Below, piece by piece: positions 1-58,775 of a stretch of 64,000 nucleotides of DNA. The stretch covers positions 44,293,740 to 44,357,739 of the forward strand of contig OX393552.1 in NCBI GenBank assembly GCA_947650365.1. Reading direction: 5' to 3'. The notes under the pieces are model-generated. The model was not told the DNA's origin. It did no database searches and saw nothing but the letters and a program-made list of their open reading frames with translations. How positions within the stretch are numbered: the first letter of the stretch is position 1; each line of letters opens with the position of its first letter. The position numbers and the translations under genes were made by a program. This DNA is from Chamaelirium japonicum. Taxonomy: Eukaryota; Streptophyta; Magnoliopsida; Liliales; Melanthiaceae.

Positions 1-1477
1 GGGATCATTAAGGCATCAACGGCTTGGATAAATTTAATATTGGATAAATTCACTAATGAAGCCCACAACTATAGCCAGTTATAACAAGATATAGATAGAT
101 GAAAATATCATTGTGTAAATGAAGTTGTCTGCATCACATCACATCACACAAGACCTCACAAAACTTCTCTCACTATCTTATTTCTTGCCGGCCCCAAATA
201 AATGGAACAATGCTTGTTGGTTATGATTTGGTATCTTAATTTCTACCAGCCAACCGAAGCTCCTCTTTTCCATTCTCATGACACGCACGGAGTGCCCTAA
301 GGGTGAACCTGGTTTACTTTCTATTCATTGGCGTATGGCACTCCCCATATATTAAAAGAAAGATGCATACACCTACGTCTTTGACCTGTAGTTTACCCTC
401 CCTGTTATTTAGACACCCAAATACCTCTTCCTCCCATATTTTGTGCATGATATGCTTTTTCCTTGGATGTGTGGCACTACCTATGGAAATTAAGGTAGGC
501 TACATCACACCCTAGTGGGACACGCATCGCTAGGAGAGCTTTTTTTTCTTGGGCAAATTACAAAAACCTCCCCTCAACTACACACCTCATTTCATATTGG
601 TCCCTCAACTTATTTTTTGAACAACTTGATCCCTAAACTATGCTCCGTCGGCATTTAGCCCCCTTTGTCAACTTTTATTCCGAAACTACCGCAGTCCTAG
701 TAAGCATAAGTTAAATATTCTAAAACTATTTTGAGTCTTATTGGAAATTGATAAGGGTATTTTCGGGATAAAAAGCTGGCACATGGGGCTAAATGCAGAT
801 GGAGCATACTTTAGGGATCAAATTGTTCAAAACAAAAGTTGAGGGACCAATATGAAATGCGGTGTATAGTTCAAGGGAGGTTTTCGTAATTTGCCCTTTT
901 GTCTTTTATAAAAGTGGATAATCAACCTCCGGAGAAACATCTGGAGATTATATTGTGAGAAAGAGAGGTCATTGAAATCTTTTATCTTCTTCTTTCTTCC
1001 AATTCAGATCCTTCTTATAGAGTGAGTTCCCCATTTTTTTTTTTATTCTAAGAGTTTGGTGGGTTCTTCATACGCCATTTGAATCCAGTGGCATGGAAGT
1101 CTGTGTGAGTGCCCTCCTATTTTGCATTTTTTCCTTCTTAAACTTTCTTTTCCTTCACTCGATCTTTCCTTGCAAGATTTTTCTACACGCTTCGGATTCA
1201 GCGTCTATATCAGAAATCATGTAAGTTAGCCTTAAATGTCAGATTTATGACCAAGACCTACCTAACTCTGGGTGGCATAAAGTACGCATGCTTTGGATTT
1301 ACTTCCTGTTTGATTCAATGCATGATTGGGAATGTACTGATATCTAATTTACTTGGCCGATTATTTGATCCAAGTTGATAAAATTAATATGGAGCTGAAC
1401 GAATGGACTGGATATGGTTTCACATCGTAACATGAGTAAAGGGCGGCGTGTAATTGCATGAGTAAAGAGTATCCCTC

Positions 1478-1566
<89 letters not shown>

Positions 1567-2100
1567 AGAGAGAGAGAGAGGATACGTGGTATAGGCTGGT
1601 GGCCTATTTCGACAAAATGGGCAGCCACCCATTTGATGCCCCTAGAGGTTTTAGAATATGCTGATTTTTTTGTGAGCATAAGCACCTTATCATATATAGA
1701 TAGATAGATAGATAGATATATATATATAGAGAGAGAGAGAGAGCTTACTCATGGAATCTTACTCATGCAATTACACACCGCCCTTTACCTACCTAAGAGG
1801 TTTCAGAATTTGAAAAAACTTGGTGGGGATGCTATCTATAGTAAGTTGAACATCCTCATAAAAAACCATCAAATTCTATAACCTCTAGTGGTAACAGATA
1901 TGCTATTCAAATTAACGGTTAATATGGATGGTCGATAAAGCTTCTAACATTTGATTCCCCTAGAGGTTATAGAATTTGATAGTTTTTTATGAGGATGATC
2001 AACTTGCCATAGATAGCACCCCCACCAAATTTCATAAAATTCTGAAGCCTCTAGGGTAGGTAAAGGATGATGTGTAATTCCATGACTAAGAGTATCCCAG

Positions 2101-2197
<97 letters not shown>

Positions 2198-5100
2198 TCT
2201 GCAACAGGTTTGCACACAACAAAAGAAAGGAAAGGCATTCACCAAGATGTTACTTCATAAGGCTCTCTTGGAGTTTCCCATCCCTGCCCTTCATTTATTA
2301 TCTGCCCAAATAAATAAATCAATGATAAAGTCTGTAGCATGTAACTGAAATAGGACAATTAAGTAAATTCATCACAACCATACTTTTGGTAATACTATCG
2401 GCATTGGGCTTTTCACAAAATGGAAAATTATTCCTAGCAAGAAAAACTGGCTGATTCATGTATAATAACCAAAAAGTAAATCCTCACTACGCAAAAAATT
2501 GTGGACTCGTTTTTTTGTTGGTGGTGTTGTTGAAATTTATTTAATGCTCAGTTTCTTCAAGTAAAAAAGCATAATCTAATAGAAAGGTGACAGTCTTTTA
2601 TTAAGGTATAAGAAAAATAAGATGTCTATCCCTTGCAAGAAGATGCAAATACATGACAGTCATCATTTTCAGGATTTAAATATCAGTACTATTTGACTGA
2701 TTTTGTCACATCTAACCACCAACTTTCCATAGTTATATCCATCATGGAATAACTATATTTTTGTGTTGATATGCAAATTCATCCACATTTGAAGAAATCA
2801 TTTGACCTCTAAAGTCAGTTTTTATAAGTTTTCATCACTGCTTAGTATTACATGATCGAGAAACGTGATGCAGAGAAGCTCAATTCAATGAAGACTCATT
2901 TCAGTCAGCCCCATGGTATGACCATTGAGAGGAGTTTACTTCTTGTCCTCATCTGTTGCAAGTGTCTTAGTATTTGGATCCTTCTCATTATTTTGGAGTA
3001 TGGAGCGGCGGTTTCATGAAAATTTAGTCAGATCAGTGGCAAGTTCAAAACTTAGAAGTTGGTGAGTTTAAGGGTTTTGGATGGCTTAAATTAACATCTA
3101 CAATTGACATTACAATTAAGTTGCAAGATAAAAGTTGTTTATCCTCTCAAGTCCTAAGTGTATCTGGTAAAGAATAGGAGAAAATGATGTGGTCTCAACT
3201 CTCAAGTCCCAAGATCTCGTAAGTTCTCAATAGAGGGACATATAATACATAAACGCAAGAGAAGTAGTAGGATTGATTCTCATAATTATAATAAAGTGAA
3301 ATATGTAAAAAATTTGTATTTGTATATTTGTATTCTATATAGTACCAAATCAAAAATAAATGTCTGATAGCAAGCTGATAAATGGAGTTAGCATTTGATT
3401 TAGTTGGTACCGACCACCGAATCCAATTCAATCAAGGACCCAGATTCGAATACTTTTTTATAACACAAATCACAAGCACTCGTCCATTACAAAATTCGAA
3501 CTTGTGTAGATTTTTCTCAATTCATCCATTTCTTCAAGAGAGAATGATAATTGTCTGTAAATGAATGATTTATTTGGAACAGAAGTTTCAAGATTTTTCT
3601 TTGTTTACAAGATATATCCTTAGACAAGTCAATACTTAAGAAAACTGACAATAAGAGACTTCTCAAGAGAAAGATGGTATTCTCTATAAGAAAATCTAAA
3701 GCATTTTAGTACACTTGCTAACTTATAATCAAGAAGATAAAGGTGAATCCAGGAAAACTAAAACCACAACAGACATTAAGAGTTGCTCACTTCAATTTTA
3801 AGAAAACAAGCATCTCTCGCCAAATATGTATCATATAAGATATGAAATAACGAAAAAAATGAATAAAAGGATGACATCAGAAATAGTAATATAATATTGC
3901 ATGCAAAATAATAGACCAGCAGGAAAAGAGTGAATGTGGTCTTTCTATTGTCACTTGCAAAAGGCTGCCACAAACATTTTATTACAGAGGCGCGATAAAG
4001 TATGCCTACACAAATTAAGACAGCATGCATACCTTCTTCACAACTCCCAGATCCTCACTGACAACCTGAAAAACAGAAGAAATTGAGTACGAATTGCTAA
4101 GGGATAAAACATGCTTTTAATGTTAAGCCCTTAACTAAGGTATACATTAGAACATAGACACTGGTAACCAAATTACAACTAATACCTACAAACCTAGTAT
4201 ATGACAGTAACAGTTCTGCATAAAGTGGTAACCGCAGATGAATGTGTTAACAGCAGCAGATTTACGTGAGAATAAAGCTAAGAATTTTTTAGATCGATAT
4301 GTCACACGCTAATATTAGTTCGTAGAAACTCTAGAATGTCTTCAACCAAAAGGTGACAATTTGTGTCCGAGTCTGGGGTATGTTGCTGACTGCTAATAGT
4401 TTGGCATAAACAACCTTATTTCAGTATTGCAGCGAGCTAAAACAGGTTTTGGGATTTCTCGAGTATTTCATATGTTGCTAATAAATTCAATGTACTTGTA
4501 AAGGGATTTGTTTTGCTCATCATTTATTTTCCCAACTGACTGGTCAAAGCTTCTTAGTAAATAATGAAGATTGGTGTCTCCAGTTAATCAACCAGGCTCT
4601 AATTTCAACAAAAAAGGATGACTACTTCTGGATCCACTCCAGTCGACGCTAATTCAATGTCATCAGAGGCCTATGTTCATCCGTTTTAGTGTTCTATGGA
4701 TTACGTTTATCCTTTCAAGAGACTTTATTACCAAGTGATCCTAAATTTTAATAATTTTCTGTAATTAGTTTGCACTGGAGTAATGCACACACATGGGTTG
4801 CACTGAGACATTAAAATTACAATGTCTTTCTAGATCTAACAAGACTGGCATGTATCAATTTGTGATGTTATAACAGAGTTACGCAACCGACATGGGTTCC
4901 TCCAAGGCATTAAAATCACAATCTCTCCCTAGATCTGACAAGACTCACCATATAAAATAACAACTTGCGATTTTATAACAAGGTTATTTAATGTGTTTTG
5001 GAAGCTCCATTAATATCAAAAATAGTGAAGTTATATTTCATTTTGTTCCAATCGGGCTGGTTCTGGATAGTTTTACTCCAAAGAAAATATTTGAAGTCTG

Positions 5101-8100
5101 CAATTCTTCCCCTCTCCTCACTTAAGTTGGGTTCCGGAGTACTATACAATGTCCATAACCATAACTATCGAGCCTAGTCCTAACTATTTGGGGTCGGCCT
5201 TATGCATCCTTCTTCGCTAGTTATTTTTGTTATGGACTATTTTGTTGTCATTAAAATATTCCACATTTTTCTAGCAATTTCTATCAATGTTATTTTAGGT
5301 CTTCCCCTCCTAGTTCTTGACCCTTCTACAGTATTCCGAGATCATCTTCTTACAGGACCCGCCTCTGCTCTCAATTGCACATATACCATCTTAATTTGTT
5401 CTCCATCACTTTATCCTTAATTTTTGCAACTCAAAAACTTCCTCAAATATACTCATCCCTCATTCTACTTTTTCCCTCCTAGTTTTATTGCACATCCACA
5501 TCAACATTCTCATCATTGCCACAGTCCCAAGCTCATCTTCTTTGTTGGAGCACCTTTATGGCTAACATTCTAAACCATGTAATGTTGCGGGGCCTTATTG
5601 TTTAAAGGCGTGTGTCAATCACAGAGCACCTCCATAGCTCCTCTCATCATCTATGTCTCCATTCTTCTGTATAATAGACTCAAGAAAACCGAAAACAATC
5701 TCAACATATATCCTACCATACCTAGTTACATCATCTATTAAGACCGATGATGGATCATGTTGAGATATCATGTCTTCATTCACTGAAGATTGTATCTTCG
5801 GGAGACGTCTTCCCACGCACACCGACCTTCTCCTCTCAAACCAGAAGGATTGGACTCCATGGTCGGCCTCAATCAGGAACGAGCTAGAGGGCTAGTTCCT
5901 CTATCGTCACCTCTTTCATGCGGTGGTACCTCAGAGGACTTCGACGCCCTCTACAAGCCCGGGATGCCAACTTCGTCCATCAAGAATGCTGATGGCACTA
6001 CAACAGAGATCGCCGCGACACCGGTGATTCCTCCCTCCGCTGCCGATATTCAACGTGTTACTGCACGTTGGGCCTTTAAGGATGCGCATGTCAAGGCCTT
6101 CCTTGTTGCCTCGATGGACACCTCTCTACGCAGTGGCCTCGTCGCCCTTCCGGATGTCTGCGCCATCTGGACGCACCTTTGCGGCCTCTTTGTCCAGTCG
6201 GACGGTGCACGTGAGGCCCACCTCCTGCGTGAGATGGTGACAGCTTAATAGGGTACCCAGCGTGTAGAGGCGTACTACACCCATATGGGAACCCTCTGGC
6301 AGGAGCTCAAGCAAATGGAGCCCGGACCTAATGCCTCAGCATTGGAGATCCAGTTGTTCCGGGAACGCCAGAAGGTGCACTTCCTCCTCGCTGGACTAGC
6401 GCCGACTATTCAGCCTCTAGCCGGGCAGCTGCTGTACCGGACCCGTCGTTGATGCGCTTCTCTCCGAGCAGTCCCGGTTGGCGAGCACCATACCTGCCCC
6501 TTCCACTTCATCTGCTCGTATCGGTCACGAAGGGGTTTTAGCCACCGCACCTCGTCCCTCTACTCCAGTATCGACACCACCCCTGACTCTTCCTCCTCGC
6601 TCTGGCGGGCTTTCCGGTGGGCGCTCTCGCGGGCGACCAACTGGTTGTGGCACGCCACCTATTTGCGCTTATTGCCACAAGTCCAGTCACCTAATCGAGT
6701 TTTGCTGGACTCTCCATCCTGAGCGTCGTACCGGACCCCTGGCCAAGGAGTACCAGTTCGTGACCCTCCTACAGCTCGTGCCGCATTGGTTGAGCGCTCC
6801 TCGTCAGCAGATCTTGCTCGACAGCAGTTCCAGATGTTCCAGCAGCACCAGCTGAGCTCCGGCGCCTCCTCCTCATCCGCCCCGCCTACTGCCTACTCGG
6901 CCAACTATGGTACTCCCTTTCCCTTGGTCCTTGACTCAGGGGCCTCTTAGCACCTTACACATGACCTTTCTATTTTTATTGACCTTCGTCCCGCCACCAT
7001 CCCCCCCTTCATACTGCAAATGGCTCTCATCTTTCCATCTCCCAGTGTGGATCCGTCTCCCCCTCCTCTGACACATCCGGTCGTCTCACCCTCCCTTCTA
7101 TTTACCACACCCCTGACTTCTGCATGAATCTTATTTCTGTTTCTACTCTTTGTAACTCTGGCCTGACAGTTTCTTTCTCTGCCTCTGGTTGTGTTGTGCA
7201 GAATCTTCCCTCGGGTTGGACGATTGGAACCGGTCGTAGAGTAGGTGGACTCTTCCACTTAGATTCTCATATGCCTCCCTCCCCCAGCAGCTTCTATGGT
7301 GTTAGTTCGTTTGTTGCCAACCTATGGTACAAACGGTTAGGTCATGTGTCCGAGCAACGACTTAAAAGCCTCTTTCAGTCTGGGGTTTTAGGTCGTGCTC
7401 CCTTCTCTTCTCTTTCCCCTTGTACAGGTTGTAAGCTTGCTAAGCTCACAACCTCTCCTTTTAGTCTTAGTAGGTCCCAGTGTGTCGCTCCGTTCGAGCT
7501 TGTTCACTCGGACATTTGGGGGCCTTTGCCCATGACATCAATGAAATGGTACCTTTATTATATTTCTTTTACTGATGACTTTTCTCGTTACACTTGGGTT
7601 TATTTGCTTCGCCTGCGGTCTGAGGTTTTCTCTGTCTACACTGCTTTTACTAACATGATACAGACCCAATTTAATGCCCGGATCAATACCTTCAGGTCTG
7701 ACTGTACTCGTGAATTCCTTTCTGCTGATATGTAATCTCTCCTATAGTCACACGGTACTCTTTTTCAGCAGTCTTGTCCGCATACTCATCGGCAAAACGG
7801 TGTTGCTGAGCGCAAACACCGTTACATTCTTGAGACGGCACGTTCTCTTCTTCTCTCTTCTGTCCCTCGCTCTTTCTGGGCAGAGGCGATCCTTACCTCC
7901 GTAAATTTAATTAATATCACCCCCTCCGCTGTTTTATCTGGTTCATCTTCTCATGAGCGTCTTTTCTCCTCACCTCCTTCATATGACATGCTCCGTGTCT
8001 TTGGCTGTACTTGCTTTGTGTTATTGCCTCCTCATGAACGCAACAAACAGTCCCCCACGGCAGCTAAGTGTGTTCTCCTAGGCCTAAGTACCGAGCATAA

Positions 8101-11100
8101 GGGTTATTGTTGCTATGACCATGTTGCTCGTCGTCTTCATCTCGCACGACATGTCTCCTTCTTTGAAGACGTTCCTTTCTACTCTCCCTCTTCTCAGGAC
8201 CTTCAGTTTCTCTCCCCCGTGTCTCCCCATGTCCCGTCTCCACCAGTTACGTCCACTTTTGTTGTCCCTCCTCCTGTCGGATCTTCCCAGCTCAGTCCCT
8301 GTGTTTCTCCTCCCGTAGAAACCTACCGGTTTGACCCTCGTGCACCCCCTCCGTGCCTCTCCCTGAGGCTCCCCCTGCATCTCCTCCCTCACCTCTGCCT
8401 CAGACTCCTGTGTCTCCTCCTCCGACTCTGCCTCCGGTTCCGCCGCCTCTGACTGAGGATCCTGCACCAGCTCTTGAGCGTTGCTACCCTCTGCGTGAAC
8501 ATCGCCAGCCTAACCGTCTAAATCTGTTTGTTGCTACTCGCTCTTATGCTCCCTCCTACCAGGTTTTTCTTACAGCTCTTCAAGCCACCCCTTCAGAGCC
8601 CCGCTCCTACCGAGAGGCTGTTCAGTACCCAGAGTGCCAGAAAGCGATGGCCGAGGAGCTTCAGGCTTTTGCTCAGATTGGAATCTGGTCTGTTGTCCCT
8701 CTTCATGCTGGAGTTGAGCCCGTTAGCTGCAAATTGGTCTACAAGGTCAAGCATCGACCGGATGGATCTATCGAGCGTCACAAAGCCCGGCTTGTTGCTC
8801 AAGGTTTCTCTCAGGAAGTCGGGATCGACTACGATGAGATCTTTGCTCCGGTGGCTCAGATGATCACAGTTCGTACTCTACTTGCCGTTTTTGTAGCGAG
8901 ATAATGGCCTCTCTTCCAAATGGACGTAAAGAATGCATTTCTTCAGGGCACCCTTTCTGAGGTTGTTTACATGCAGTCGCCACCTGGTTACTCCATGCCT
9001 CCTCAACATGTATGTCTTCTTCACCAAGTGGTCTATGGTCTCAAGCAGGCTCATTGTGCTTGGTTCGAGTGTTTTCGCAGTGCTGTTTGCTAAATTGGTT
9101 TCTTGGAAAGCTACCATGACCACTCTCTGTTTGTGTGGTCCTCACCGCAAGGGCGGGTTCTCCTTCTTCTCTACGTTGGCGACATGATCATCATAGGCGA
9201 TGATGTGGCTGATGTGGCATCGCTCAAAGCTCACCTACAGTGGCAGTTTCAGATGAAGGATTTGAGCCGTCTCTGTTATTTTCTTGGCCTAGAAATAGCA
9301 CAGAGTCAAGACGGCATCCTCATCTCTCAGCAGCGCTATACTGCAGATATCATAGCTCGAGCTGCACTTGTGGATCAGAAGGTTGCAGATACACCTGAGG
9401 AACTTAATGTTAATCTTCGGCCGACAGACGGGGAGCCTCTTATCGACGCTACACGATACAGGCAAATAGTAGAACAGCTTATCTACTTGTGTATCACCAG
9501 ACCCAACATCGCTCATGCTGTAAGCATTGTCAGTCAGTTCGTCTAGGCCACTCGCTCAGTTCACTATGCTGCCCTTTTGAGGATCCTTCGGTACCTACGA
9601 GGCACCATTACCTGATCTCTTCTCATGCCAGTAGATTCCTCTCTGGTTCTTCGAGCCTTCTCCGATGCTGATTGGGCAAGTGACCCTACTACTCGGCGCT
9701 CTACTACTGGTTTCTGTCTCTTTCTTGGTGAATCTCTTATCTCCTGGCGCAGCAAAAAGCAGGATGTTGTTTCTCTTTCCAGCACAGAGTCTGAGTATCC
9801 TGCTATGGCTTCAACCACCAAAGAGATCGTCCATGTTAGACGCATTCTTTCCGACTTTGGGGTTGAAGTCTCCTCACCTACTACCCTCTGTTGTGACAAC
9901 AAGAGTGCCCATCTAGATTGCCTGCAATCTGGTCTTTCATGAGCGAACGAAGCACATCGAGATTGACTGCCACTTCACACGAGAGCACTATGAGGCCGGG
10001 ACCTTCTCCCTACCACACATTTCTTCTGCTGAGCAGATTGCGGACTTCTTCACAAAATCTCACTCCACTCAGCGTTTCCTATTTCTGATTAGCAAACTCA
10101 CTCTATTTGACCCATCATGAGTTTGAGGGGGGATGTTGAGATATCATGTATAGGTGTGTGGTGTGTGCAGAGAGTGCATATTGGGAGAGAAGTGTGTGAG
10201 TATATCTAACTTGCACAGCAAGTCAGATTGTATCTATTTATATCCTTGAGCCTTAGAGCTGAATAAGAATCCCTTTATTTTTTCCCAAATCTTATCAGGT
10301 CAGATTGAGACTGAGAAAGTAATAAGCCCCATTGACATCTCTTCATCTGCAAAGAATTCTTGGACCTACCATTGATATGCTTAAACCACAAACCTATTGT
10401 CTATTTCCTGGTCAGCAATTGTAAAAATGGATTCATTATCATCACTATTTTAATTATTGCATTCCATAAACTGCATTTTAGTTTTACCAATTTTGTAGCC
10501 CTTTTCTTCCAAAACTTTCTTCCATATTTCAAAAGACGCATTTAACCATATCCTTATCTCACTGACTACACTTATATCATCTGCAAAAAACATATACCAT
10601 GGTGCTTCATCGTGAATATTAGCAGTAAGTTCATCCATGACAAAAGCCAAAAAAAAAGGGCTTAGACAAACCATGGTGTACATTATTTTGTACTTCTTGA
10701 ATATTAGAAGTAAGATGTACTATATAATCATTGAATATGAAAGTTATAATTTTATAAGAAAAAATGTAACTTTTTTATTCAAAAACAAACTGCCAGAAAG
10801 TGAGAATGCACATCTATTATATAAATTGTTTTTTACTAAATTCAACAATAATTCCTCACTCTCATCTAACATATTTTTTAATACCAAAAAATCATATCTT
10901 CCTAATGATATTTAAAATTTATTAAATAAATAAAGTAAAATATGATTTTGATGTGAAAATACCTCAGAAAACAACCCTGGTTTCTTTTTAGCAGCCTAAC
11001 ATCCAACTCCTAAAGAATCTTATCTCCAAAGTCCCACTATTCTCCATCAATCAAGAAGAAATCACGAGTTTGGATGCAAAAACTCTGAAAGAACTATTAC

Positions 11101-14100
11101 TTTTAAAAGGAACTTGGATCATTATTCTACTACTAGATATCTGATAACAGAGCTACAAAACAATGAACATTGTGGCTCAGATTTAACAATATTTGAGGAT
11201 ATCTTACTTTATCTATTGCTCCGCTCATCGCTCCTGAAGGATAGTCACGTAATGCCAAGGATATTCTGATTCCACATATTTTTTTGGTACGAAATAAGAG
11301 AAAATGATTTTTTTTTAAATAATCAATTCAATAAGATCAACAATGAATTAGAGCAAAGGACAAGAAGACCTAAAAAGTTCCCCGCTGATACATTCATGTC
11401 GTTTACCAATAGATTATGAATGAATTTTAACATATGTTTGCTTACATTCAGTAACTATAATGAAATAGGCAAAGTGAAGTCAGCATCAAAATGAGTAAAG
11501 ACATCAGTATATAACAAGAGAAATTATTAAAAACTAAATTTTGGAAACATCATTAATTCCCTGGGATGCTTCTTTTTCCATGCCCTGTAACCTCCATTTC
11601 AGTTCCCAAAAGAGAAGAATGGTCGAGTAGGAGACTAGCAAGCTTGAATATCCAGCAGTACCAAAGATTTAATGATTCTGCTACAGAGGAAATAACAAGT
11701 TCTAGGGTTCCAGCTGAGCTTCTCATGTTAAACTATATAAATGGGATAGTTAAATTAGAGTCGTTATTGACACATCATTCCGATATAACTGCCAGAATTT
11801 CAAATTCAAAATTTTAATAAAATTTGATTGACATATTACATATAATAATACTAATATTTTCATATAAAAGTCTTTATCATGCTGTTATATTGTTGTTATC
11901 AGTCATAATGACATTAGAACAGCTGATAAGGCCACAATAAAATCTAGTACTTTACTATAAACGAATTCTCATCTAGGGATTTTTATAACATTTAAGCATT
12001 GTACTTAGCGGATTAGTCCAGGGAACGTTACAATGGAATAACATGATATTTAAAAATTAAAACCTTGAGTCCTAGCCGTCATTGATTAAAAGGTAGAGTT
12101 GGGGCCCTCCAAAATGAGCACTCGAATTGCAATTCCTTCTCTTTTAAAGATTTAACTTTCACAAATGATCTGGGCCATGCGATATAGAGACAACTAGTCA
12201 TCGTTTCGCCTCTAAAGTTAATTAGATGCTCGAAACTACACCTCTAAAGACGGTATAACTAGAGCACGCAAGCTAGGAAAAGAAACATGAGGACTAAAGT
12301 TCAAAGATACTGCGAGGATGCAAGTTGATAATATAAAAGACTAAAGTGATAAAGAACATGCAAACTGTGCTTTAGCGAGAAAATCATAGCTGTGAATCAA
12401 GAGATATCAAGTTTGCTAAACTAAATGGATAAATGTAAATTTGTAATTCAATCAAGAAAACAAGCACATAGAAAAGACCTCAACTAAGGTCCCTTAGCAT
12501 TTGGTAAGCTCTTACCAAGTTGCTGAGCTTCAACAAACAAAATTTTCCCCACAACAACAATCAACAGTCAACTTTCTTGGAACTAACGGAATCAAGATTC
12601 GAGTATGAACAGAAGTAGGCAGTATACAATCAAATAGATGATATGAAACAGCAATCACCTTTTCATAAGTTGCAGAGACATATCATGAATAACATTTTCC
12701 GTACTCATAGGCGAACAAAAAAATGCATTAAAGAAAACAGCACAAAATCAACATTTCTTCTTTATAAATCTCGAGACAACTTCAGTAAAAGAGTAAAGGG
12801 CTTATCGCCCAATAATACAGATGGGGTTCAAAAGCACAAAACATTCATCTAACCGGTCATTAAGTTTCAAGGTAATGTATCACATGAGTGAATATTCTTG
12901 CCTTGACTTTAAAGAAATCGAGCATCTCAATTTCAAAATGAAGTTCATCATGCTTGGGGAAGTTCTCTGGAGCTGTAATTGGACAGTCAGCCTCGGCATA
13001 GTGTATCTCAGGTTTCATCTTGAACTGAAAATGAAGTTTATTAAAGCAATTTTCATTGGATCAAGAGAAAATATAATAAAAAATTCCACAAAGAGGCAAC
13101 TTTAAAGCTCCTATATATCTTGTGTAAAAGTTTGTACTCAATGGAAACAGCGGTTTTGTCTGATATGCCACATCATGTACATATTGATAGCACACAAACC
13201 AAAGTCTTTTTGTGAAATTTTTTATGTCACCATGCATCCAAATAGAACACACAATTATTCCACGTAAAAAATTGTTATAGAAGGATATGCCATGGTAGTG
13301 GGAGAGCATTTGCAATAGAATTATAACATGACTTGGGTAATGGTTGGGATTCTCGAGCCACCAGGTAAATGATTAGTCAACCCTGATAACCACTCGTTGT
13401 GTTGTGCTCAGTCCACCTTTAAGCATAAAAAACTCATCAGCCTGCATATCCCAATCTCCAGTTGCCAGCAGGAAAGCACTCCCAGCAAGAGGGTATCAAA
13501 ACTCACAAAAAAAAGAACTCAAAAGTAAAAGGCATACAATCAGACCTTTTCCACCATCCTTTATATATAATGTTTATTTGGATGGGAACTTTAAACAATA
13601 AAAAAGAACCATCTTCTAACTGTAGAGATTGAATATCTAGCACGGTAGCACCTACAAAAAAATATTAACCACTGATGGCAACATCGATGCAACAACATAA
13701 CCAAAAAACATCGCCTCTTCTATTATTTCCTAACCAGTTGTTCCTATCAAGGGCCTATTCGTAAGTCTAACCAAGTTCTATTTCAACTATTAATTGCCAA
13801 CCAGATTTTCTCAAGTATGTCTCTTTGTTTCCATACATAACTGAAGCCCCTTACTTGTCAGGGCCTCGACTGGTCTTCATCGCACATGGAACAGTGAACA
13901 CATGACCATAATTCTCAATCAAATAATGGTATCTGTATAGTCAACTTAGCAACCCACTATCTTTCTTTAGTTACTACATATTGAGCTCCACACATCCACC
14001 GGACACCATCAGCTCACAAAAGTTCTATCTTTGTAGCTATTGAAAGCTTGAAATATGAACATGTAAATGTATTGCAATTCTTTACTTTGGCAATATCGAT

Positions 14101-20100: not shown

Positions 20101-23100
20101 TCTTATCCTCTGAGGTTTCAGACAAGTTGAAGTCAAAACTGAAATACAACCGTTATTTTCCATACCATTTAGAGCTGTCTGCGATTCACCGATAAGGTTG
20201 GATGTAACTAACGATAGAGATTCAGTATGCATTAAATTTTCATTTTGGTTGTTTTCTATGAGGTTTTTTCAGTTATTGAAATATATATGAATTGCAAACA
20301 CACATAAAATATAAATTTAAAAATATTAATTTATTTTGTAGTGTCCCCGCCGTACCCGTGTCCTTTTATAGGATTTGTCGTGTCGGCAAACCCGTGTCGT
20401 GTCGTACCCGTGTCCCCGTACCAGTGTCAGTGGTTCTTAGTTCTAAGGACATTGTCGCTTTACGGCGATGGTGACTTGATTGGACTTTGATCCTAATTTT
20501 TTTTTCAGGTTTTCTTTTTATCCTTAATTATGTTGCACCCTGGTCTCCCTTATCACTTGGTTAAGGGCATTCAAAACTCCAAGCATGTCTCTTCATACTC
20601 TCTATTTTCCTCATCTTGACTTTCAAATTGAGACATTGATAGGATCAAGTACCAACTTGATACGATCTGATATCAACTAGATGGGATGTGTATGCTTGAA
20701 ATAAACAAGTGCAGAATTTAAAACATCAAATCAGATTTCAGCATAATAAAATCAGATTTCAGCAAAGCCTATTATCATGGTTCATCATTCATTCAATCCC
20801 AATCAGATTTTAACTTAACAAAACAATGAAACTGACAAGATGAACATTAATTTCAGATTATAAGGACTGAATTCCAGCAATAAGAACAAGAACAATCTCA
20901 AATTAATAAACCAATGTCTCAATAACAATCAAAGATCTAAACGAATAAACCTAACGGATGAGATTCTCGGGAAACCAAGGAATTTCGGAAACCCTAATAT
21001 GATTTCAGCAATAAGGCCGGTTGTAGAAAGCAGGTTATCACATGAAAATTATCGAGGATCGATCTCACCGTGCTTTGGTCAATGCCGGCAGCTTTCTGAT
21101 GCTCCGATGTTGCTGATGAATGGCGCGGAAGGGGAGGCGTGGCTCAGAAGACGGGGTGAAGAAGCCGAGACGACGGATCTTTGAAGACGAAGAAACTTCA
21201 CGTCGATCTTCCGTGAAGCCGTGGATGAATAGCGAGGCGACGGGGTAGAAGCTTGCGAAGGAAGAACAGGATGAGAAGCAAGGAAGAATTCGTCGGAAAG
21301 GATAAACCGAACAAGCGAGCCGCTTCTCCGTTTCTAGGGTTTCAATTCATATTCATCTCCCCTTTCTCTCAATTAGGGTTTAGACTTTATAGGGAATGAA
21401 AGCATGAAGGCACAAAAGGAAAGAAAGAGAGAGGGAGGCCGGTCGGGTAGAGAGAGAGAGAGGAACGCGCGGAAGAGATAGGGGGATCGGTGGGTATCCG
21501 CGGGAGAGAGAGAGGGCCGGTCGGGTGGGGAATTAGGCTAGGGTTTTGGGTTTTAATTTTCCCTCGAATCTCATCCATTGAGATCTATCCTAATTTAAGA
21601 TCCTATGGCCTAAAACCTAACACAGAAATGAGTCAGTTCGGCATCTGTGGCTCGAACCGGGTGCGAACATGGCTCGCACCTACCCAAACCAGAAATAAAA
21701 ACTGAAATAACTAAAGATCCGTTGGTCGGATCGAAATAAAGTAAAAACCAAAACTGTGGGGCTTCGATTAAGCTTTCCACTGATGCAGACGGATCGACGA
21801 TCGGGTTCCTGGATCTCCGGCGCGGATGAAAATACGCCATCAGCTGTAGAAAAACTGCACGTAGTAGGCTCGTCTGCATCAGACATCAAAAATATCCAAA
21901 CCAAAGTGGTTAAAACAGAATCAATATAATTAGCCATATATGTCCTCATATGGATGCCTGAATGTGTATTTTTTTCTACTCAAACAAGCTGATCCACTCC
22001 CTCCATGTTCACTAGAGCCCACAGGCTGCAGCTTTTTTGATAGAAAAATAAGTGAATTGTCATCTGGCCCATAGTTCCACTTAAAAAAATTAAGCCTATA
22101 AAATGGATTCATTTTCTTACCAATATATTCCTTCTCTTCTATTCTTCCCTACAGTTACAGCCTTCCAATTCTCACCTATAAAAGGATGGATGGAACATAG
22201 TAGAGTTCGAAAGGAATAACAACGATGAATTAACCACCAGGCTATTAGTGTTCTGATTCCATAAATATCACGGTGACAGCCCACAAAAATATATTTTAAG
22301 CGATTCAGGTGCACAGTTAATTGATCAGCATAACAAAATATCCCATCAAGACAAAACAACTTCCTTATACAGTAAGTGGATATCATCTTTAGTACGTGTA
22401 GACACAAAATTTATCGCACCCGAACCCGACTCGTGTGCGCCAACCCGGGGGCCAGCCCAACACAAACCAGGGCCCCACCGGACCCAACCTAGGCCAAAGA
22501 AGAGGCCGGGTGGGCCCGTCCACAAGTGGGGCCCACCCGGCCCCCCTTGGTAAACCGCGCCCCCCTTCCCGGAGGAAGGGAGCAGCCGGCCAAGGGAGAA
22601 AAGGAAAGAAAAGAAAAGAAAGAAAGAAAAGGAAAAAAAAAAGGAAAGGAAAGAAAAGAAAGAAGAAAGAAAGAAAAAGAAAGAAAGGAAAGTAAATCCA
22701 CCATATGTGGGGGGAGGTAGCTTGGACGTCTACACACCGTGGATCCGCGCCGATCCCTCGATCCAACGGACAAGAAACGAGGTGGGGTCACCATTGATTT
22801 AATGCGCAAGATTCAAATAAAAATTCAAAATGATTGAGCCATAACCAAGGTTCGAAATCTCCATTTCGGTGGAAATTTCGACCTTCTGGATATGGAAATA
22901 TTTCGTGGAAATATTTCGACAGTGTGGAAATATTGCAATTTTGTAGAAATGGTGGAAATATTGATTTTTTGATGGAATTTTTTAATGAAACTCCGGATAG
23001 TCATAAACCAAGTATAGATACACACTTTGGAACACTCACATAATATGTGTACCCTATCAAGGGGTGTAGAGCTTCACATAACATGTATTCAATGTATTAA

Positions 23101-26100
23101 GTTTGTGAGTGTTGTGCAATCTTATTTAGTTCGGTTTTGATATATATTTTTCAAATATTTTTTAATCCTTTTTTTGGATAAAAATATTTTTGAAATAAAG
23201 ATTAGTTGATTGTTAAAATAATGTTTCAAACGATTTTGAAAGCGGAGTTAAAACAAGAAAGTTATGCAAATTTGAAATTGTGCAAAAATTATGCTGAAAT
23301 GTGAAACACTGTTTTTTTACTAAGTCTGAAAAAACGAGTTTTTATATAGAAAAGTTTTTATACATTCAAAATTTCCTAAGACGGACCATGGTTTTCTAGA
23401 TGTACTCGTACTTCTACATCTTGTGGAATTTTTTGAGCTAAAAAGGAGTTGATTTAATCACTTTTCTCACCATGTAGATTTTATAAAAATCCATAAAAAC
23501 TGTTTTCTCCTACTAAAATTGAAAGTTTACTTTTTGATTCCTTTGTTTTTTGATTTTTTTGATATTTTTATTGAAATCAAATGGGGGGGTATTTGCTTAT
23601 TTACATATAATAACTTAAAGTAAATGGAGAAAATAAAAATTAAGTAAAACGACATTTACTTAAATGTTATTATATGAAAATAAGCTGCTGAGAACCAGGC
23701 CCCCCAGTCCCCTTTTATAACCAGTCAGTCACAGAATTTCGGATAAATTTCGCAAAATTTTTCGAAATTTTCGCAAAATTTCGATAAAATATCACGATAT
23801 TTCGTGGAGATGGAAATATTTCGTGGAAATATCGCGATATTTCGCGAAATTGCTCGATATTTTGACATTTTCAATTATGCTCGAGATTGCAGGTAATATT
23901 TCGTATCGGGGTTTCATTTTTCCGATATATTTCGCGATATTTCGCGAAATATATCGATTTTTTGTTCCATGGCCATAACTACCTCGCCAGAAAAAAGAAA
24001 GAAATAAAGATTTATTCCCCCATAAATGAGGGAATGAATCTTGGGTAGTTATAGGAGAGATATTCAAGGGATTCAAATAAATATTCCCATATCTCTCCCA
24101 CCCCCCTTCACCTATAAATAGAGGGGGAGGGGGAAGGCTCCGGAGGTCAGTCAGAAGACGAAGACAAGAAGACGCCAAGGCTCTGCATAGGAGGAGACTC
24201 ACTTTCAACGACCCAAGGCTTCACGAGGCTCGGACAAGCCTACCCTATGGGAACAACTTAGCCCATTGAAAGTCATCATCAATGTGAAGACCCTTGCACA
24301 GAAGATCAAAGTTTCAACTACTCGCACGAAGAATAAAGCTTGGAGAAGAAAGCCCGGAGTCGGCATCACCACGTCGTCTCCAACAATCTTCATCAACTCC
24401 GAAGATGCCACAAGCAAAGGCCGGAGAAGAAGATCGAAGTCGGCATCATCCCGTCATCTTCAACAAAGCTTCAACTCCTTGCACAAAGAAGAAAGCTTGG
24501 AGAAGAAGGTCCGGAGTCGGCATTACCCCGTCATCTCCAACAATCTTCATCAACTCGACGCCACAAGCAAAGACCGGAAAAAAAGATCGAAGTCGGCATG
24601 ACCCCATCGTCTTCAACAAAGCTTTAACATCTTGCACGAAGAAGAAAGCTTGGAGAAGAAGGTCCAGAGTCGGCATTACTCCGTCGTCTCCAACAAGTCT
24701 TCATCAACTTCGAAGACCCCCAAAAGCAAAGATCGAAGCTAGAGGAGAGGAAGCTCTGCAGAGGAGACTCGCCTTCACCGATCCAAGGCTTCACGAGGCT
24801 TGGGCAAGCCTACCCTATGGGAATGGCTTAGTCCATTGAAAGTCCTCATCAATGTAAAGACCCTTGCACAAGAGAATCAACCCTTCGACTTCGTGCACAA
24901 AGAAGAAAGCTCAGAGAAGAAGAAGCCTTCAACTCCGAAGACACCAGAAGCAAAAGCTGGAGAAGAAGATCGAAGCGGCATCACCCCGTCGTCTTCAACA
25001 AGCCTTCAACTCCGAAGACGCCAGAAGCAAAGGCCAGGAAGAAGATCGAAGAGGCATCACCTCGTCGTCTTCAACAAGCCTTCAACTCTGAAGACGCCAG
25101 AAGCAAAGGTTGGAAAAGAAGATCGAAGCGGCAACACCCCGTCGTCTTCAACAAGCCTTCAATTCCGATCAAGCAACACAAGCCCGGAGAAGAAAATCAA
25201 AGCGGCATCACCTCGTCGTCTTCAAAAAGCCTTCGACTCCGATCAAGCAAAACAAGCCCGGAGAAGAAGATCGAAGCGGCATCACCCCGTCATCTTCAAC
25301 AACGTCCGCCCCATTCACGAAGAAGAAAGCTTGGAGAAGGACATCCAAAGCGGCGCTACACCCGTCGTCTTCAAAACAAAGCCTTCAACTCCGATCACGC
25401 CAAAGAAGTCTGGAGAAGAAGAGAAGTCAAGCCGATGCCACAACCGTCAAGGAAACCGGAAGAATAAAGAAGACTTGGAGGACATCGTCATCGTCGTTTG
25501 AGGTGAAGATCACGCCAAGGACAAAAGCAAAAGCCCAAAGCTAAAGCCAGTGCAAAGCCAGAGTTACGCTCGCGCTAAAGCCACACATGTGCTGAAGCCA
25601 AGCAACTACAAAGAATAACGAGCAAAGCAACGCACTTTCTAGCCGATACGGCGCGAAGTCCGGAAAAAAGAAAGTACTGCAAGCCTTTACCCCTTCTACG
25701 TTCGAGCGTTATACGCTAAAGCTACGCCGACGCCAGAGCTACACCAAAACAAAGCCAGAGCCAGACGCCAAAAGCCAAAACCAACGCCAAAAGCACGATC
25801 GACGTCGCTAGCCGACGATCAAGGACGCTGAGGTCTAGCCAGAGCAAAGGGAGACGTGAAGACCGAGGAACGAAGCCAAAAGCCCCCTAGCCAGGAAAGC
25901 GCGAAGCACGAAAGGGACGAACGCAACAGCGAAGACTCCGTGGCCTCTCAAGAAACCCTCACCCTGTAAAGACCTCTGTCCTGGGCAACCCCTCCAGAGC
26001 TCTCGCACAAAGTAACGTGGAGACGCAGATCAAAGGGACCCTCCAGAAGATCCCTCCCACAATCTCCTGATCAAAAATTCGCCGCACTTGGCTCACCACC

Positions 26101-29100: not shown

Positions 29101-32100
29101 ATTAGGAGGGTAAAGATATGTTAGTTCCATCCTGGATTCCTGGTACATCATGAAGCATTTGTATCCTTCGTTTTCATTCAGTTACCAAAACAGGCTATAT
29201 TTAACTTCAGGATCAACCTTTCTTCGACTACAATGGTACCAACATGACTAACAAAAAACTCCACGATCTTCAACCAGGATGGTATCAGCCATCACTACCA
29301 AAATTTTCCATTTGAAGCCTGATATACTTTCCTAAAAAGCTTCTCCGTTACTCGTTCCAGATCATTTTTTGTACTTACAGGGACTTCAATATAAAAAGAA
29401 CGAAAGAATGTCCAATAGCACACTAGTATTTCTCCTTTTCTCATTAAAATAAGGTATGAGCCAACATCCACATGCCCCAGCCCATTCAAATGGGGACCTA
29501 CTTTGCCATTCATTCCTATTATGAGCGTCTAATTTTAGCTTTCTTGTTCTAGCAAAATCAATCAAGTGATACCTTATTTCTAGAATGGTTGCCCGAATTG
29601 AACAGTCAGGAGTGATCTCATTAACACTTAAAAATGTCTTGTACTTTTCGTTCTTTTTCCAAAGCAAGCTAACACCCATATACACAATTATTGTAATACA
29701 ATATTAACTCACCATCCTGGTTATTATACTTCTTTTTACAAAATATGATCAATTTACCTTAATGAAAGGGGTTCGTCCGTGTAGATTGAGTGAGGTGAGT
29801 ATTGCTTGTGATTGTTGGTGTGGTTGGTGTTGGGTGGGATAGGCATGTACACCATTATTTGCAATTTGTGCAATCCAAATCTCAGCAATGAAGACAATTT
29901 ATGATTCCCTTCCACACCTATTCCATTTTTGGTCTTTACCATAGCAATCTAAGTATTTCAGAGGAAGTGTTGGAGTAGCACCAATTGAGGACAAAATGTT
30001 GAAAATGTTAAGATGGTATGGGTGTGTACAACGGAGTAGCTGCCTAAGAAAAATGCCTTAGAATATTGTGGACAGAGCAAGAAAGAGGAGGGGAAGAGGT
30101 AAAGTAACCTTGATGGAAGTTGCTAGAAAAGATAGGAAAAGCTTTCTGGAATAATAAAGATAGGCCTTAACAAAAAAGAAAGACAAAGAAGAATTTATAA
30201 GGCCGACACTGAATACATCGGACAAGGCTTGATAGTTACAGATATGGTTATGGTCTTTATCCTAGGACCCAGGTGACAGACATTACATTTCAAAACTCAG
30301 TGAAGGGAACAAAGCAAGGATCAAAATACCGGCCGGTACGAACCGTACCGGCCGGTTCAAACCGGGAATCGGACCGAACCGCACCCGTATCCAGTCGATA
30401 CCGGTTGCGAGGATTAAATCGCGTAAATACCGGCCAGTTCGACCAAATACCGGTTCGAACCGGCCGGTTTGAACCGGTTCCGGGTATGAAGCATGGTTTT
30501 GGGTGGTTTTTTCATTCCGGTTTTATTTTTTTAGGCATCTTTCTTTATTCCCACATGAGGTGAAGCTCCATACTAGCTGGATTTGCAAGATTTGAGCCAA
30601 AAACTCGGATTTGCAATATCAAAATCATATTTGAAGGTATGTTTTCATAATTTTTTTTATTTTTCTTTTGTTTTGTTGCATTTTTTTTGAAAAAAATCAA
30701 AGAATTGTGGTGAAAATGTTGAAACGAGCTAGATCTATGCCATCAAAGCTTAGATCTATAGATCTATAAGCATCATCTCCAAATTTGTATGATCGTTTCA
30801 TACAAATTTGGGGGGTTTTCAATTTTCGTTTCTTTTTTTGTATTTTTTTTTTAAATAAACCAAATAATAGTGGTGAAAATGTTGATATGGATCAAATCTA
30901 TGCCATCAAAGCTTAGATCTATAGTCTCCACGACCATACCCTATATACACCGGCAGCACTTATGAAGACAACACATGTGTCTTCGATTCACATAGTATGG
31001 ATTTTGGAGATAGTGGGAATGTTGGTGTTGAACATGGAGGTACTGGGGGTGCAAATGATAGTGGAGTTAGAGAAACCAGAGGACAGTGGCAACAACCTTA
31101 TTATGGACATGGAAATCCTCCATCACACTACCCACCACCATATTATCCTCAGCCAGAGCCAGAATCATCGATGGGTAGCATTGGGACTCCCCGTACGAAC
31201 TCCTTGGAAGTTCGTACGGGGAGCCTCAATATCAGTCATTTGTGTATGATTTCTTCCAATATCCGACATTGCCGCCATCTGGTCATCCACGAGGCAATGA
31301 TGATGATGATGAAATGTCGCCTGCCCGAAGTTCCATGCGGTACTAAGTTACTCAGTCTAAGTAGGTAAAAATATCTAATTCTCTACTCTTGTAAGTTATG
31401 GATATGCATTTTATTTGCTAAACATGTTAGGAGTTTTAGGACTATGAATTTGTGTTTATTATGTGAAATTGTAAAATATGACTCATGTAGTCGTATTAGT
31501 TGTGTAATTCATGTTTGTGCAATGGTCATGAATTGTTTTGTAATCCTTAAGCATAATACTAGGCTAATCTAACACATACAATTTAATAACTATATCAAAT
31601 TCCACAATTTAGAATCATACAGTGAAAACAGTGACTTTATAACTTAAAAAGACCGGTACATACCTATAACTAGTTTACTAATGAAAAAAAAAACATCACA
31701 AACCAGTATTTTAGATTATTCTGGATTTTTTGATTATTTTTTCAAATTTTTTTGAAACCAAAAATCAATTCACACCGGTATGGACCGGTTCGTACCACCC
31801 GATTCGAACCTTTTTTCGGCCGGCCGATAATTTGTCCGCGACCGGTATTTTTATCCATGGATCAAAGTCACTTCGAAGGTTTATCCTTTTTTTCCTTTGA
31901 GAGATCATATTGTGAAATACTTCGCCATGGTGTTTTTGCATTTGAGTTTCCAAAGATTCTTAATAGAATAATGAGCTAGTAGAGGGTCAACTACGAGACT
32001 ACGAAGTTGACATGGACAAACAAAATATGGCAGGAAATGAAACAATTTGTTTCTTGAGGTATTACTTTATGATACTCTATTATAATGTAGTAACCCAAAC

Positions 32101-38100: not shown

Positions 38101-40821
38101 AAGGCTATTAGCCATAGGAAAATTTAAAGAATGCAAACAATCGGATACTATGTAAATGAAATGATGAAAGTAATGACCTCCCATATTTAATTTCATCCAT
38201 ATGTTTCTATCTTCCAAAATGCACAAAACAAGTATATAACTCCCATATTAGAATCAATCTGATATAGGACGCGACACCCACATCCCACACACCCCGCACA
38301 ACATGGTGGCCCACATGAAAATCCCAGCCTAGCAGCCTGTTTAGTTTTTATTTTATTTTTATCATGTGTGTTTGAGTATTACTAGGAGTCCTAGTCTTGT
38401 TCTTATTGGAGTTGTAATCTTTTGGATTTGTTGTCTATTTAAAGGGCCCTAATCTTCACTTGCTATATAGTTTCATGAAGGTAAAAATTAGAAATTTTTC
38501 TCTTCTACCTTCTTGGTGGATTCCAAATTTATTTGCTTGGTGGATTTCAAGGTTTTATCAACAAAAACAGTGTTCTTCGTCTTTCCCATGCGTCCGAAGT
38601 TTTCGATCATGTTCTTCATCTGGCTCCTCTGCATCAAGTACTATCAAAGCTTCATGCATGCACTCCCTACTACGCCAAGTGGTATCCGAGGTTCGTGACC
38701 TAGCTGCCAACTACGCAGCAATCAGCCCTCATCCTAATGACCTGTGAGCACAGGCTCAATCCTTATCTTCTTGGAAGTTAGACCTCAAGTCGCATAGTCA
38801 AATTTCCTCGATCAGTCTCTATACCTAGTTTACACAATACCCAAATCAAAAAATTGACCACCTTTTTTCGTAAACCATGAGCCTAAGTCCTCATTCACTA
38901 AGAAGATAGGATGCCTTCATGGAGGGTATGTAGGGCTCGACAGCTAATCTTTGGGTAAACAATGGTGTCCTATGACATCCCCAAATAAAGAACAATGGTG
39001 TCCTCCTACGACATCCCCAAATAAAGCCATCGGGATCGATCAAATTTCCATCGCCGTTGTTGATGTAACATTGTAACTATCATATCTCCTAGACTGGGAT
39101 ACACCGATACTTCAAAACAGGTGCCGTACCCGTATCGGATACTTCCCGATACTCCGATACGGCCCGATACGGCGGGATACGTATCCGATACGGCTACGAA
39201 GTATCGGAATTAAAAAAAAAACAAAAAAAAAAAATCCGATACGGCGGGGATACGGGCCCGATACGTCGGGGATACGGCCCGATACGCCGGGGATACGGCT
39301 CGATACGTCGGGGATACGTCCCGATATACCGGGGATACGGCTCGATACGTCGGGGATACGGCCCGATACGTCGGGGATACGTATTGGGTCTAAATATATA
39401 ATATTATACATATATATTAGAGGGCTAGGTTCCTATGACATGTCATAGGGAGTACCCTATGACATATGGTGAATTAGTAATGCTAGAATGTTTGGAATGT
39501 GCTGAATTTTTTTGAGGGTGATCACCTTACCTTAGATAGAATGTCTACAAAAAATCAAAGCATTCTAAAACTTGTTGAGGCATCAAATACTAGAAGCTTT
39601 ATCGGCCATCAATTTTAACCGTTAAATTGAAAATCATATTTGATGCCTCTAGAAGTTTTAGAATGAGCCGATTTTTTGCGAGGGTCCTATCTAAGATAGG
39701 GTGATCATCCTCATAAAAATTCAGAACATTCTAAATATTCTAGGGTTACTAACTCACCATATGTCATAGGGTACTCCCTATGACATGTCATAGGAACTCA
39801 TTTTCCTTTATATTATATAGGATAAATTACACATAGACCCCCTGTATTATGAGCGATGATCACTTACACCCCCTATAGTTTGAAAACCCAAAACATAACC
39901 AGGAGGGGGTGCAAATGGTGTGTTTTTCGAAATAAAGGTGGGGATTTGTTGGGTTTTAAACATGAGGGGGTGTAAGTGATAATGGGTCAAACCCATCTGG
40001 TGAATCGCACTAATTGGATGCCACGTCAACTGGTGTAACGGACGGATGTGATTTTTTTTCGGTTATAACTTAACCTCAGATCGCTCAGACTGAGATCCCG
40101 TGGCCGCCCTTGTTGGAAAGCAAGAGAGGGGGAGCGACCAGGCGGCGACCACACCAACCAGGTGACGACGACGAGGCAGCGACCACACCGACCAGGCGAC
40201 GACGACGAGGCGGCGACCACACCAACCAGGCGACGATGACCAGTGCTCATGTTTTTTTTTTTCTTCTCTTCTCCTTTTCTTCTTTTTTGCTGGACGGACT
40301 GAGTTTCGCTCGGATTGATAGGGTTTCGGCCGCCGAACCTTGCCGATTTCGGCCGAAATCCACCTTTCCGGTCTTCTGCTGGACAGATTGAAGGGCAAAG
40401 TTGCTTTTCTGGGTTTTAAATCCAAAGCCTCGAGTGAGTTTTGCTCGGATTGTTAGGGTTTCGGCCGCCGAAACCTTGCCGGTTTTGACCGAAACCCTAA
40501 CAATTAGGCTAAAACCCACCTTGTCGGTCTTCTGCTGGACGGATTGAAGGCACAGTTACTTTTTTTGTTTTTTTTTTTCAAATCACATGATTAAAGGAAT
40601 GATCGAAGGGTTTTTTTAAAAATCCAAAGCCTCGTGTGAGATTCGCTCGGATTGTTAGGGTTTTAGCCGCCGAAACCTTAACGGTTTCAACCGAAACCCT
40701 AACAATCTGACTGAAATCCACATTGCTGTTCTTCTGCTGGACGGATTGAAGGTACAATTATTTTCAAACTATTTACTATTCATATTCTAGCACAAAAATG
40801 ATTATATTTAATTATTAATAT

Positions 40822-40853
<32 letters not shown>

Positions 40854-42074
40854 AAATTACAAACGTATCCCCGCCGTACCGCGTATCCTAGTTTTTTAAA
40901 AATCCACGTATTCCCGTATCCGTATCCCCGTATCCGTATCGGTGCTTCCTAGCTCCTAGACCACCTCTCTCTTCCCATCGTTTAGTTCCTTCCCTCCCTC
41001 AGCACGTTGAAGAAGAGCATGAGAGAAGAACAAACCACCAAACCCACATGATGTTTGGCGAGAGAAAAAGCGAGGAAGATGTTATTTTTTACTATTAAGG
41101 GTGGGATGAGAGAGAGACAATGTGAAAGGTTGAGTTAGTTCTTAACCCCACCTAGCTTATGTCGCATTAACATCGAAAATGGAGCCCAAAAGCAGGGCGT
41201 CCCGTCACAATACCTAATCCACACGAGACCCAAATCCAAACATTGGCCACTAGTCATTATTGGGGACAGCAATGGTGTGGTTTTGGGCAAAACCGAAACC
41301 GCACCACAATAACGAACCGCCACACTGAAACCGCACCGCACCGCGACGGTGTACCATTATGTAATACCAAAAACACACCATACGGTACGGTGTGGTACGG
41401 TTGCGGTTTATCATTATAATGGCCTAAACGATGCAGTTTTATGTAGTTTTGGTCAAAACCGAAACCGCACCGCTACACCGAAACCGCACCGCACGACAGT
41501 TTTATATTTTGGCAAACCAAAATCGCACCATGCGGTGCGGTTTACCACGGTTTTTGGTTTTAAACCGCACCGATGCCATCCCTAGTCATTACTTCCAACC
41601 CCTGCTTTGTCTCCTAAAGACATGAGCCTAAGTCCTCATTCTCTAAGAAAATAAATTGCCTTCTTGGAGGAGCATGTAGGACTCAACAGCTGGTCCTTGG
41701 CTAAATAAGGGTGTCCTCTTGTAGACTCGACATCCCCAAATAACACCATCAAGATCAATCAAATTTCTATCACCTTTGTGGATATAACTATCCTAACTCC
41801 TAAACCACCTCTCTCTTCACATCGTCTAAGCTCCTTCCCTCCCTCAGCATGTTGAAGAAGATCATGAGAGAAGAACCAATCACCTAAACCACAAAATATT
41901 TGGTGAGAGAAAAAGCGAGAAGATGTTATTTTTGCTATTAATGGTGGGAGGAGGGAGACGATGTGGAAGTTTCCAGGTTAAGTTAGTTCTTAATCCCACC
42001 TAGCTTTAGTTGCATTAACATTGGAAATGGAGCCCAATGGGAAGGCATCTAGTCACATTTGTCTAAATTAGGAA

Positions 42075-42112
<38 letters not shown>

Positions 42113-54420: not shown

Positions 54421-55642
54421 TGATGCGATCTGATATCAACTAGATGGAATGCGTAATGCTTAAATTAATCCAAGTGCAGAATTTAGAACATTAAACATCA
54501 GATTTCAGCATATGTAAACAAATTTCAGCAATGTTTAGAATCACTATTCAACATTCATTCAATCCCAATCAGATTTAAGTCAATGAGATCATAAAACTGA
54601 CAATAAGAACAATAATTTCAGATTATAAGGACTGAATTTCAGCAATGATAACAATCACTATCTCAAATAATATGCCAATGTCTCAAGAACAAATAAAGAT
54701 CTAAACGAATAAACCCTAACGGATGAGACTCTCGGGAAAACAGAATTTTAGGATTCCTACGGTAAAACAGCAATAAGGTCGGTTGTAGAAAAGCAGGTTA
54801 TCACATGAAGATTATCGAGGATCGATCTCACCGTGCTTCGGTCAATGCCGGCAGCTTTCCGATGCTCCGAGGTTGCAGATGAACGGCGCGGAAGGGGAGG
54901 CGTGGCTCAGAAGACGGGGTGAAGAAGCCGAGACGATGATCTTGAAGAAGAAGAAACTCCACGTCGATCTTCCGTGAAGCCGAGAATGAATAGCGAGGCG
55001 ACGGGGTAGAAGCGTGCGGAAGGAAGAAATAGACAAGAAGCCGAGAGGATTTCGTCGGAAGAGATACACCGAGCAAGCGATCCGCTTCTCCGTTGTTAGG
55101 GTTTCAATTCAATTCATCTCCCTTTGCAATTAGGGTTTTTAGAATAAATAGGGGATGAAGGCACAAGGCACAAAAGGAAAGGAAAGAAGAGAGAGAGAGG
55201 CCGGTCGGGTAGAGAGAGAGAGAGGACGCGCGGAAGAGAGGGACGCGCGGGCATGTTCGCGGGAGAGAGAGAGAGGGCCGGTCGGGTGGGGATTGGGCTA
55301 GGGTTTTGGGTTTTTTAATTTCCCTTTGAATCTCATCCGTTGAGATCTATTCTAACCTAACATCCTATGGCTAAAAAGTAAACACAGAAACGAGTCAGTT
55401 CGGCATCTGTGGCTCGAACCGGATGCGAACATGGCTCGCACCTACCCAAACCAGAAATAAAAACTGAAATAACTAACGATCCGCTGGTCGGATCGAAATA
55501 AAGTAAAAACCAAAACTGTGGGGCTTCGATGAAGCTTTCCACTGATGCAGACGGATCGACGATCGGGTTCCTGGATCTCCGGCACGGATGAAAATACGCC
55601 ATCAGCTGTAGAAAAACTGCACGTAGTGGCTCGTCTGCATCA
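54421..55642. mobile_element. LTR-like repeat, copy B (1,222 bp), with perfect 5-bp target duplication
   Basis: TTCCA flanks both sides (54,416-54,420 and 55,643-55,647). The ends TGATGC...GCATCA are 6-bp inverted repeats. The sequence is closely similar to copy A at 20,658. The size, ends and 5-bp duplication fit a solo LTR. Near the left end GATCTGATATCAACT resembles the complement of a Met-tRNA primer site, which is unusual for an LTR interior. Confidence 0.8.

Positions 55643-58055: not shown

Positions 58056-58132
<77 letters not shown>

Positions 58133-58276: not shown

Positions 58277-58307
<31 letters not shown>

Positions 58308-58702: not shown

Positions 58703-58775
<73 letters not shown>

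Follow-up and report, generated by a model that had tools for sequence, protein, structure and literature searches.

In the portion of the Chloranthus spicatus study available to us (PMC8626473), long genes and long introns are described as prevalent in Chloranthales and magnoliids. Across 2,184 orthologs, the mean intron of C. spicatus measures 3,681 bp compared with 153 bp in Arabidopsis, 876 genes among these orthologs exceed 20 kb and LTR elements appear to be the main contributor to intron length. The accessible text on Magnolia biondii (PMC7917104) reports introns averaging about 2,774 bp, some of them exceptionally long. As to splice sites, the available part of PMC6310983 puts GC-AG introns at about 1.2% of plant introns. 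We found no published report on the intron structure of the gene encoding PASTICCINO1 (PAS1), a plant multi-domain FKBP, in an open-access literature search limited to long introns, splice sites and GC-AG introns, and the text of a microexon paper (PMC8831610) contains none of the terms FKBP, PAS1, large intron or long intron.

The window analysed here, a stretch of 64,000 nucleotides, very probably carries the 5' part of a normal and probably functional PAS1 gene with old intron positions, introns lengthened in part by mobile elements and a GC donor that is probably old. We identified seven exons on the minus strand, collinear and in frame, that together comprise 545 coding bases across 42,521 bp; their placement, proposed by the first-pass annotation, was confirmed by tblastn, splice sites and reading frame. 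Exon 1 (44763-44687, 77 nt) contains the start codon and ends in phase 2, and is followed by exon 2 (33799-33715, 85 nt, phase 0 at its end), exon 3 (32722-32653, 70 nt, phase 1), exon 4 (26726-26629, 98 nt, phase 0) and exon 5 (13024-12902, 123 nt, phase 0). Exon 6 (4065-4033) spans only 33 nt and is in phase 0 on both sides, whereas exon 7 (2301-2243, 59 nt) breaks off within a Trp codon, in phase 2. The six complete introns measure, from intron 1 to intron 6, 10,887, 992, 5,926, 13,604, 8,836 and 1,731 nt. The incomplete intron 7 crosses the window edge, and the span of more than 44 kb given by the first-pass annotation holds only if this intron is counted up to that edge. The joined seven-exon frame is free of stops. 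All six acceptors are AG, and six of the seven donors are GT; the splice sites had been called intact, as they are, with no mention of the GC donor that follows exon 5.

This layout is that of a long-intron gene, with normal exons and a span well above 20 kb. As in the long-intron genes of C. spicatus, insofar as the available text describes them (PMC8626473), an old exon structure is combined with long introns that contain LTR-type elements; the mean of the six complete introns of PAS1, about 7.0 kb (41,976/6), compares with 3,681 bp in that species. The end of exon 7 at 2243 is indicated by the window residues EVTSW, which pair with EVKLW in Magnolia and EVKSW in Tasmannia. An end at 2254 (donor gaa/gtaaca) was also considered and ruled out, because the next residues, VTSW, match VKLW and VKSW of these relatives.

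The exons were compared with chance matches in tblastn searches that used four PAS1 proteins, from Magnolia (P0121, 618 aa), Tasmannia, Cocos and Nelumbo, as queries. Exons 2, 3, 4, 5 and 7 were recovered by all four queries at 40-80 bits (E ≤2e-7, ≤1e-7, ≤5e-10, ≤4e-15 and ≤8e-6, respectively). With the Magnolia query, the matches were collinear, with E-values of 1.7e-5 for exon 1, 1.6e-11 for exon 2, 6.3e-9 for exon 3, 4.1e-12 for exon 4, 9.6e-17 for exon 5 and 6.4e-7 for exon 7. Recovery of exon 1 depended on the query: its 39.3 bits with Magnolia compare with E-values of 0.001 for Tasmannia, 0.044 for Cocos and 0.033 for Nelumbo. The top matches outside the exons reached 21.2, 21.6, 25.0 and 24.6 bits across the four queries (maximum corresponding to E 0.38), and the reversed-window control gave 23.9, 23.5, 26.2 and 25.4 bits (maximum corresponding to E 0.17).

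Exon 6 was not significant by tblastn alone (E 0.49-1.5; 0.64 with Magnolia). Among the 200 open minus-strand segments of the form AG-33 nt-GT/GC, it scores 47 and the next segment 18; the maxima of the control scans were 7 on the plus strand (202 segments) and 15 and 8 on reversed sequences (207 and 177 segments). This 33-nt exon stands out only when its position and splice sites are taken into account. For PAS1 residues beyond 182, the only tblastn matches in the window with E below 1 were related-domain matches at exon 4 (with Nelumbo also at exon 5) and one low-complexity match, at E >0.3. With no proper match to residues 182-618 inside the window, the remainder of the gene must lie outside it, in line with the earlier proposal that the gene continues past the window. 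The further FKBP-like domains and the C-terminal TPR region expected of PASTICCINO1 would be encoded in that outlying part.

The encoded product corresponds to approximately residues 1-181 of the 618 residues of Magnolia PAS1, with which it is collinear, and contains a complete FKBP_C domain (PF00254, E 1e-17, domain positions 1-94 of 94). Compared with PASTICCINO1 proteins, the window holds the first part only, and devotes more than 42 kb to 182 codons. The assignment to PAS1, already made by the first-pass annotation, is supported by PASTICCINO1-annotated relatives: among the best 120 of 445 matches, identity is 81% to Magnolia sinica, 79% to Dioscorea rotundata, 77% to Cocos, 77% to Tasmannia and 73% to Nymphaea. 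The M. sinica protein (P0121) is the closest named protein among the matches listed, at 81% over the 178 residues compared (E 2.2e-103). Wheat FKBP73 (3jym, 3jxv), the best solved relative, belongs to the same FKBP fold family (phmmer, E 1.8e-36) and matches much more weakly than Magnolia PAS1, the two E-values coming from databases of different size; among full-length relatives, the product is nearer to PAS1 than to other plant FKBPs. Neither the best 120 of 445 matches nor the 39 matches to shorter proteins included a protein identical to the window exons, and these matches therefore yielded no transcript from the source species. We also found no PAS1-coding DNA in a scan of prokaryote contigs, and neither Rfam nor tRNA scans of the window produced a match.

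In a tree of 36 sequences and 182 columns, the window product is placed beside Dioscorea, Musa, orchids, palms and grasses with UFBoot 96 (94 for the group without the window). Since Acorus and Spirodela fall outside that monocot group, we do not trust the monocot-side placement in this short tree.

The age of the exon borders was assessed from database proteins, in which fragments, skipped exons and retained introns served as border markers. Of the 64 break positions collected from 218 proteins, 34 lie within about one residue of a junction in the window. Such positions account for 18 of 161 (11%) by chance, and the resulting binomial probability of 2e-16 is overstated because related proteins share breaks. 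The other 30 breaks are off the junctions, and seven of these lie in the variable N-terminus, at residues 11-12. The Hibiscus syriacus protein P0205 lacks residues 111-151, which is exactly exon 5, and also residues 44-59, which match no exon; in Stylosanthes P0211, the 11 missing residues are consistent with the 33-nt exon. Junction 1/2 is supported by one protein only and junction 2/3 by two. As breaks tend to coincide with the window junctions, the intron positions look old. At the level of these protein sequences, the exon pattern appears old at least from junction 3/4 to junction 6/7, and it is the intron lengths that would differ. Separately, PAS1 proteins of other plants (P0204, P0205, P0211 and others) frequently show a skip or a read-through where exon 5 ends.

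Intron 5 (4066-12901, minus strand) is a GC-AG intron, reading AAG/gcaaga at the donor and ttttcag/GTT at the acceptor. It shares the GC donor and AG acceptor with the plant GC-AG introns covered by the available part of PMC6310983, and differs from them, as far as that text goes, in its length of 8.8 kb and in the 33-nt exon that follows. The junctions at residues 110, 151 and 162 are all in phase 0, and a read-through protein reveals the donor by the residue that follows the exon, valine for GTN and alanine for GCN; the donor gcaaga of the window translates as Ala-Arg. At junction 151, the exon 5 border, 15 of 210 proteins diverge. Eight of these begin with Ala-Arg like the window (three from Brassica, one each from Phlomoides and Corchorus, and three others), and one more, from Quercus lobata, begins with Ala-Ile. 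The others begin with Val-Ser (Dioscorea alata P0210 and the grass-like metagenome protein P0195), Glu-Arg (one, Cuscuta) or Ile-Leu (two, D. alata), or skip exon 6 (one). At junction 110, eight of 215 proteins diverge, seven with valine, of which two are exon-5 skips, and one with phenylalanine, which is misaligned. At junction 162, eight of 201 diverge, seven with valine (including one apparent skip) and one with glutamine; valine is weaker evidence at this position because exon 7 itself often begins with it. Alanine starts none of these 16 diverging proteins at the two neighbouring junctions.

Because the read-through proteins at exon 5 mostly start with alanine and none do so at the neighbouring junctions compared, the GC donor of PAS1 intron 5 is likely, though not proven, to be conserved into eudicots. 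Four or five lineages back it when the three Brassica proteins are counted once and the two ARISYLF readings once. We consider it rather probable that the GC donor has been kept since before the eudicot split, with GT in its place in some monocots, and that it is paired across 8.8 kb with the 33-nt exon; both Val-Ser readings, which resemble GT, come from monocots. The competing explanation, which we regard as unlikely, is that the GC donor is private to the window, the product of a recent mutation or of an erroneous base, and that Ala-Arg elsewhere has another cause. The evidence from other plants is at the protein level only, and the Glu-Arg of Cuscuta and the Val-Ser of P0210 and P0195, the latter as expected from a GT donor, fit this explanation. 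It is opposed by the predominance of Ala-Arg at exon 5, with the additional alanine in Quercus, and by the complete lack of alanine among the diverging proteins at junctions 110 and 162.

A different reading takes the locus for a redundant duplicate, or one in early decay, and places the working PAS1 elsewhere in the genome. We compared the product with 85 thinned PAS1 proteins. At the 93 columns conserved in at least 90% of them, the window differs at two (L35F and L94F), whereas each of the 85 proteins set against the rest differs at 3.19 on average (maximum 15). When the 31 columns with full invariance are considered, L35F is the single deviation of the window; the comparison proteins average 0.16 and reach 2 at most. 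That substitution at an invariant column is the one observation in favour of a duplicate. The frame is open and the splice dinucleotides are intact over seven exons, and the changes at the 90%-conserved columns are fewer than in the average PAS1, although a young duplicate would look alike. The exons join in phase with conserved PAS1 residues, as originally described, and we read the conservation pattern as free of signs of decay, one residue being unusual; a duplicate of this kind seems improbable. It is highly improbable that the long spans are an assembly artefact of wrongly joined contigs, given that the window contains no N, that all exons lie in order on one strand in one piece and that the intron lengths resemble the class reported for related lineages.

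Several repeats were identified within the introns by Pfam searches (1-45 kb in six frames with X at stops, giving 18 frames, and 45-64 kb in two frames) and by self-comparison of the window. Intron 5 contains a broken Ty1-copia element (5758-10149, plus strand, antisense to PAS1), for which 5758 marks the start and 10149 only the beginning of the 3' repeat. Its gag_pre-integrs, rve, SH3 and RVT_2 (E 3e-58) domains lie in different frames, a gag match of 19.8 bits and Pol_BBD are under the Pfam cut-off, and its ends still share 17 bp (5757-5773 and 10133-10149). Also under the cut-off, at 20.0 versus 29.6 bits, is a minus-strand match to reverse transcriptase at about 10465-10665. Intron 4 carries a 1.2-kb dispersed repeat (20658-21881) that is 87% identical to 54421-55642 and has no target-site duplication. 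The copy at 54421-55642 starts with TG, ends with CA and is flanked on both sides by TTCCA, like a lone LTR. Self-comparison also identified palindromic MITE-like elements in intron 1 (39429-39797) and intron 7 (551-896), a palindromic element consisting partly of AT repeats (1692-2155) and smaller repeats at approximately 5153-5453, 29952-30247, 38876-39078 and 40947-42057. Of these smaller repeats, 5153-5453 is inverted relative to 29952-30247 and 59809-60052, as part of a dispersed repeat of about 70% identity. Only one intronic element in 1-45 kb carries coding domains above the Pfam cut-offs, and less than half of the intron sequence, 42 kb in all, is assigned. Where the first-pass annotation counted at least a dozen distinct insertions, several are borne out, namely one copia element and other repeats, and a dozen is possible but not established.

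Other features of the window include a tandem array at 24307-25422, with units of 74-77 bp and about 152 bp and long plus-strand open frames that have no Pfam match, and a Gly/Tyr/Pro-rich open frame of 147 residues at 30925-31368 (plus strand), also with no Pfam match. Upstream of PAS1, a long open frame at 48397-49479 (plus strand) matches zf-RVT and RVT_3 (RNase H-like), as in plant LINEs. Palindromic repeats lie between long AT/TG runs at 58063-58964 and 60177-60568 and include segments related to 1796-2155 and 39495-39744.

Our preferred reading remains that of a normal PAS1 gene with lengthened introns, whose transcription, splicing and function are predicted from sequence. RNA polymerase II would transcribe the whole span into one pre-mRNA of well over 42 kb, and the ordinary U2 spliceosome would remove the introns at their old positions. 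Insertions may have caused much of the intron growth, lengthening introns and being tolerated where donor, branch region and acceptor were spared. The GC donor of intron 5 would probably be as old as the split from eudicots. With introns of such length, recognition across the exon is expected. Exon-wise recognition is awkward for an exon of just 33 nt that is preceded by a GC-donor intron of 8.8 kb.

Introns of this size are in themselves no novelty, and the gene is ordinary for genomes of this class; what is new beyond the first-pass annotation is the GC donor and the evidence for old junctions. With its exons of 33-123 nt, its single GC donor and introns that reach 13.6 kb, the locus offers a clean example of a gene that would be lost to gene finders restricted to short introns or to GT donors. 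If gene finders reject GC, this donor would explain the frequent read-through and skipping in database PAS1 proteins, and its conservation, if true, would be a practical warning for annotating PAS1 across plants. The combination of a GC donor, an 8.8-kb intron and a 33-nt exon is the one mechanistically interesting point of the locus and, should the reading hold, would provide a test case for how a weak donor is joined to a 33-nt exon over a giant intron.
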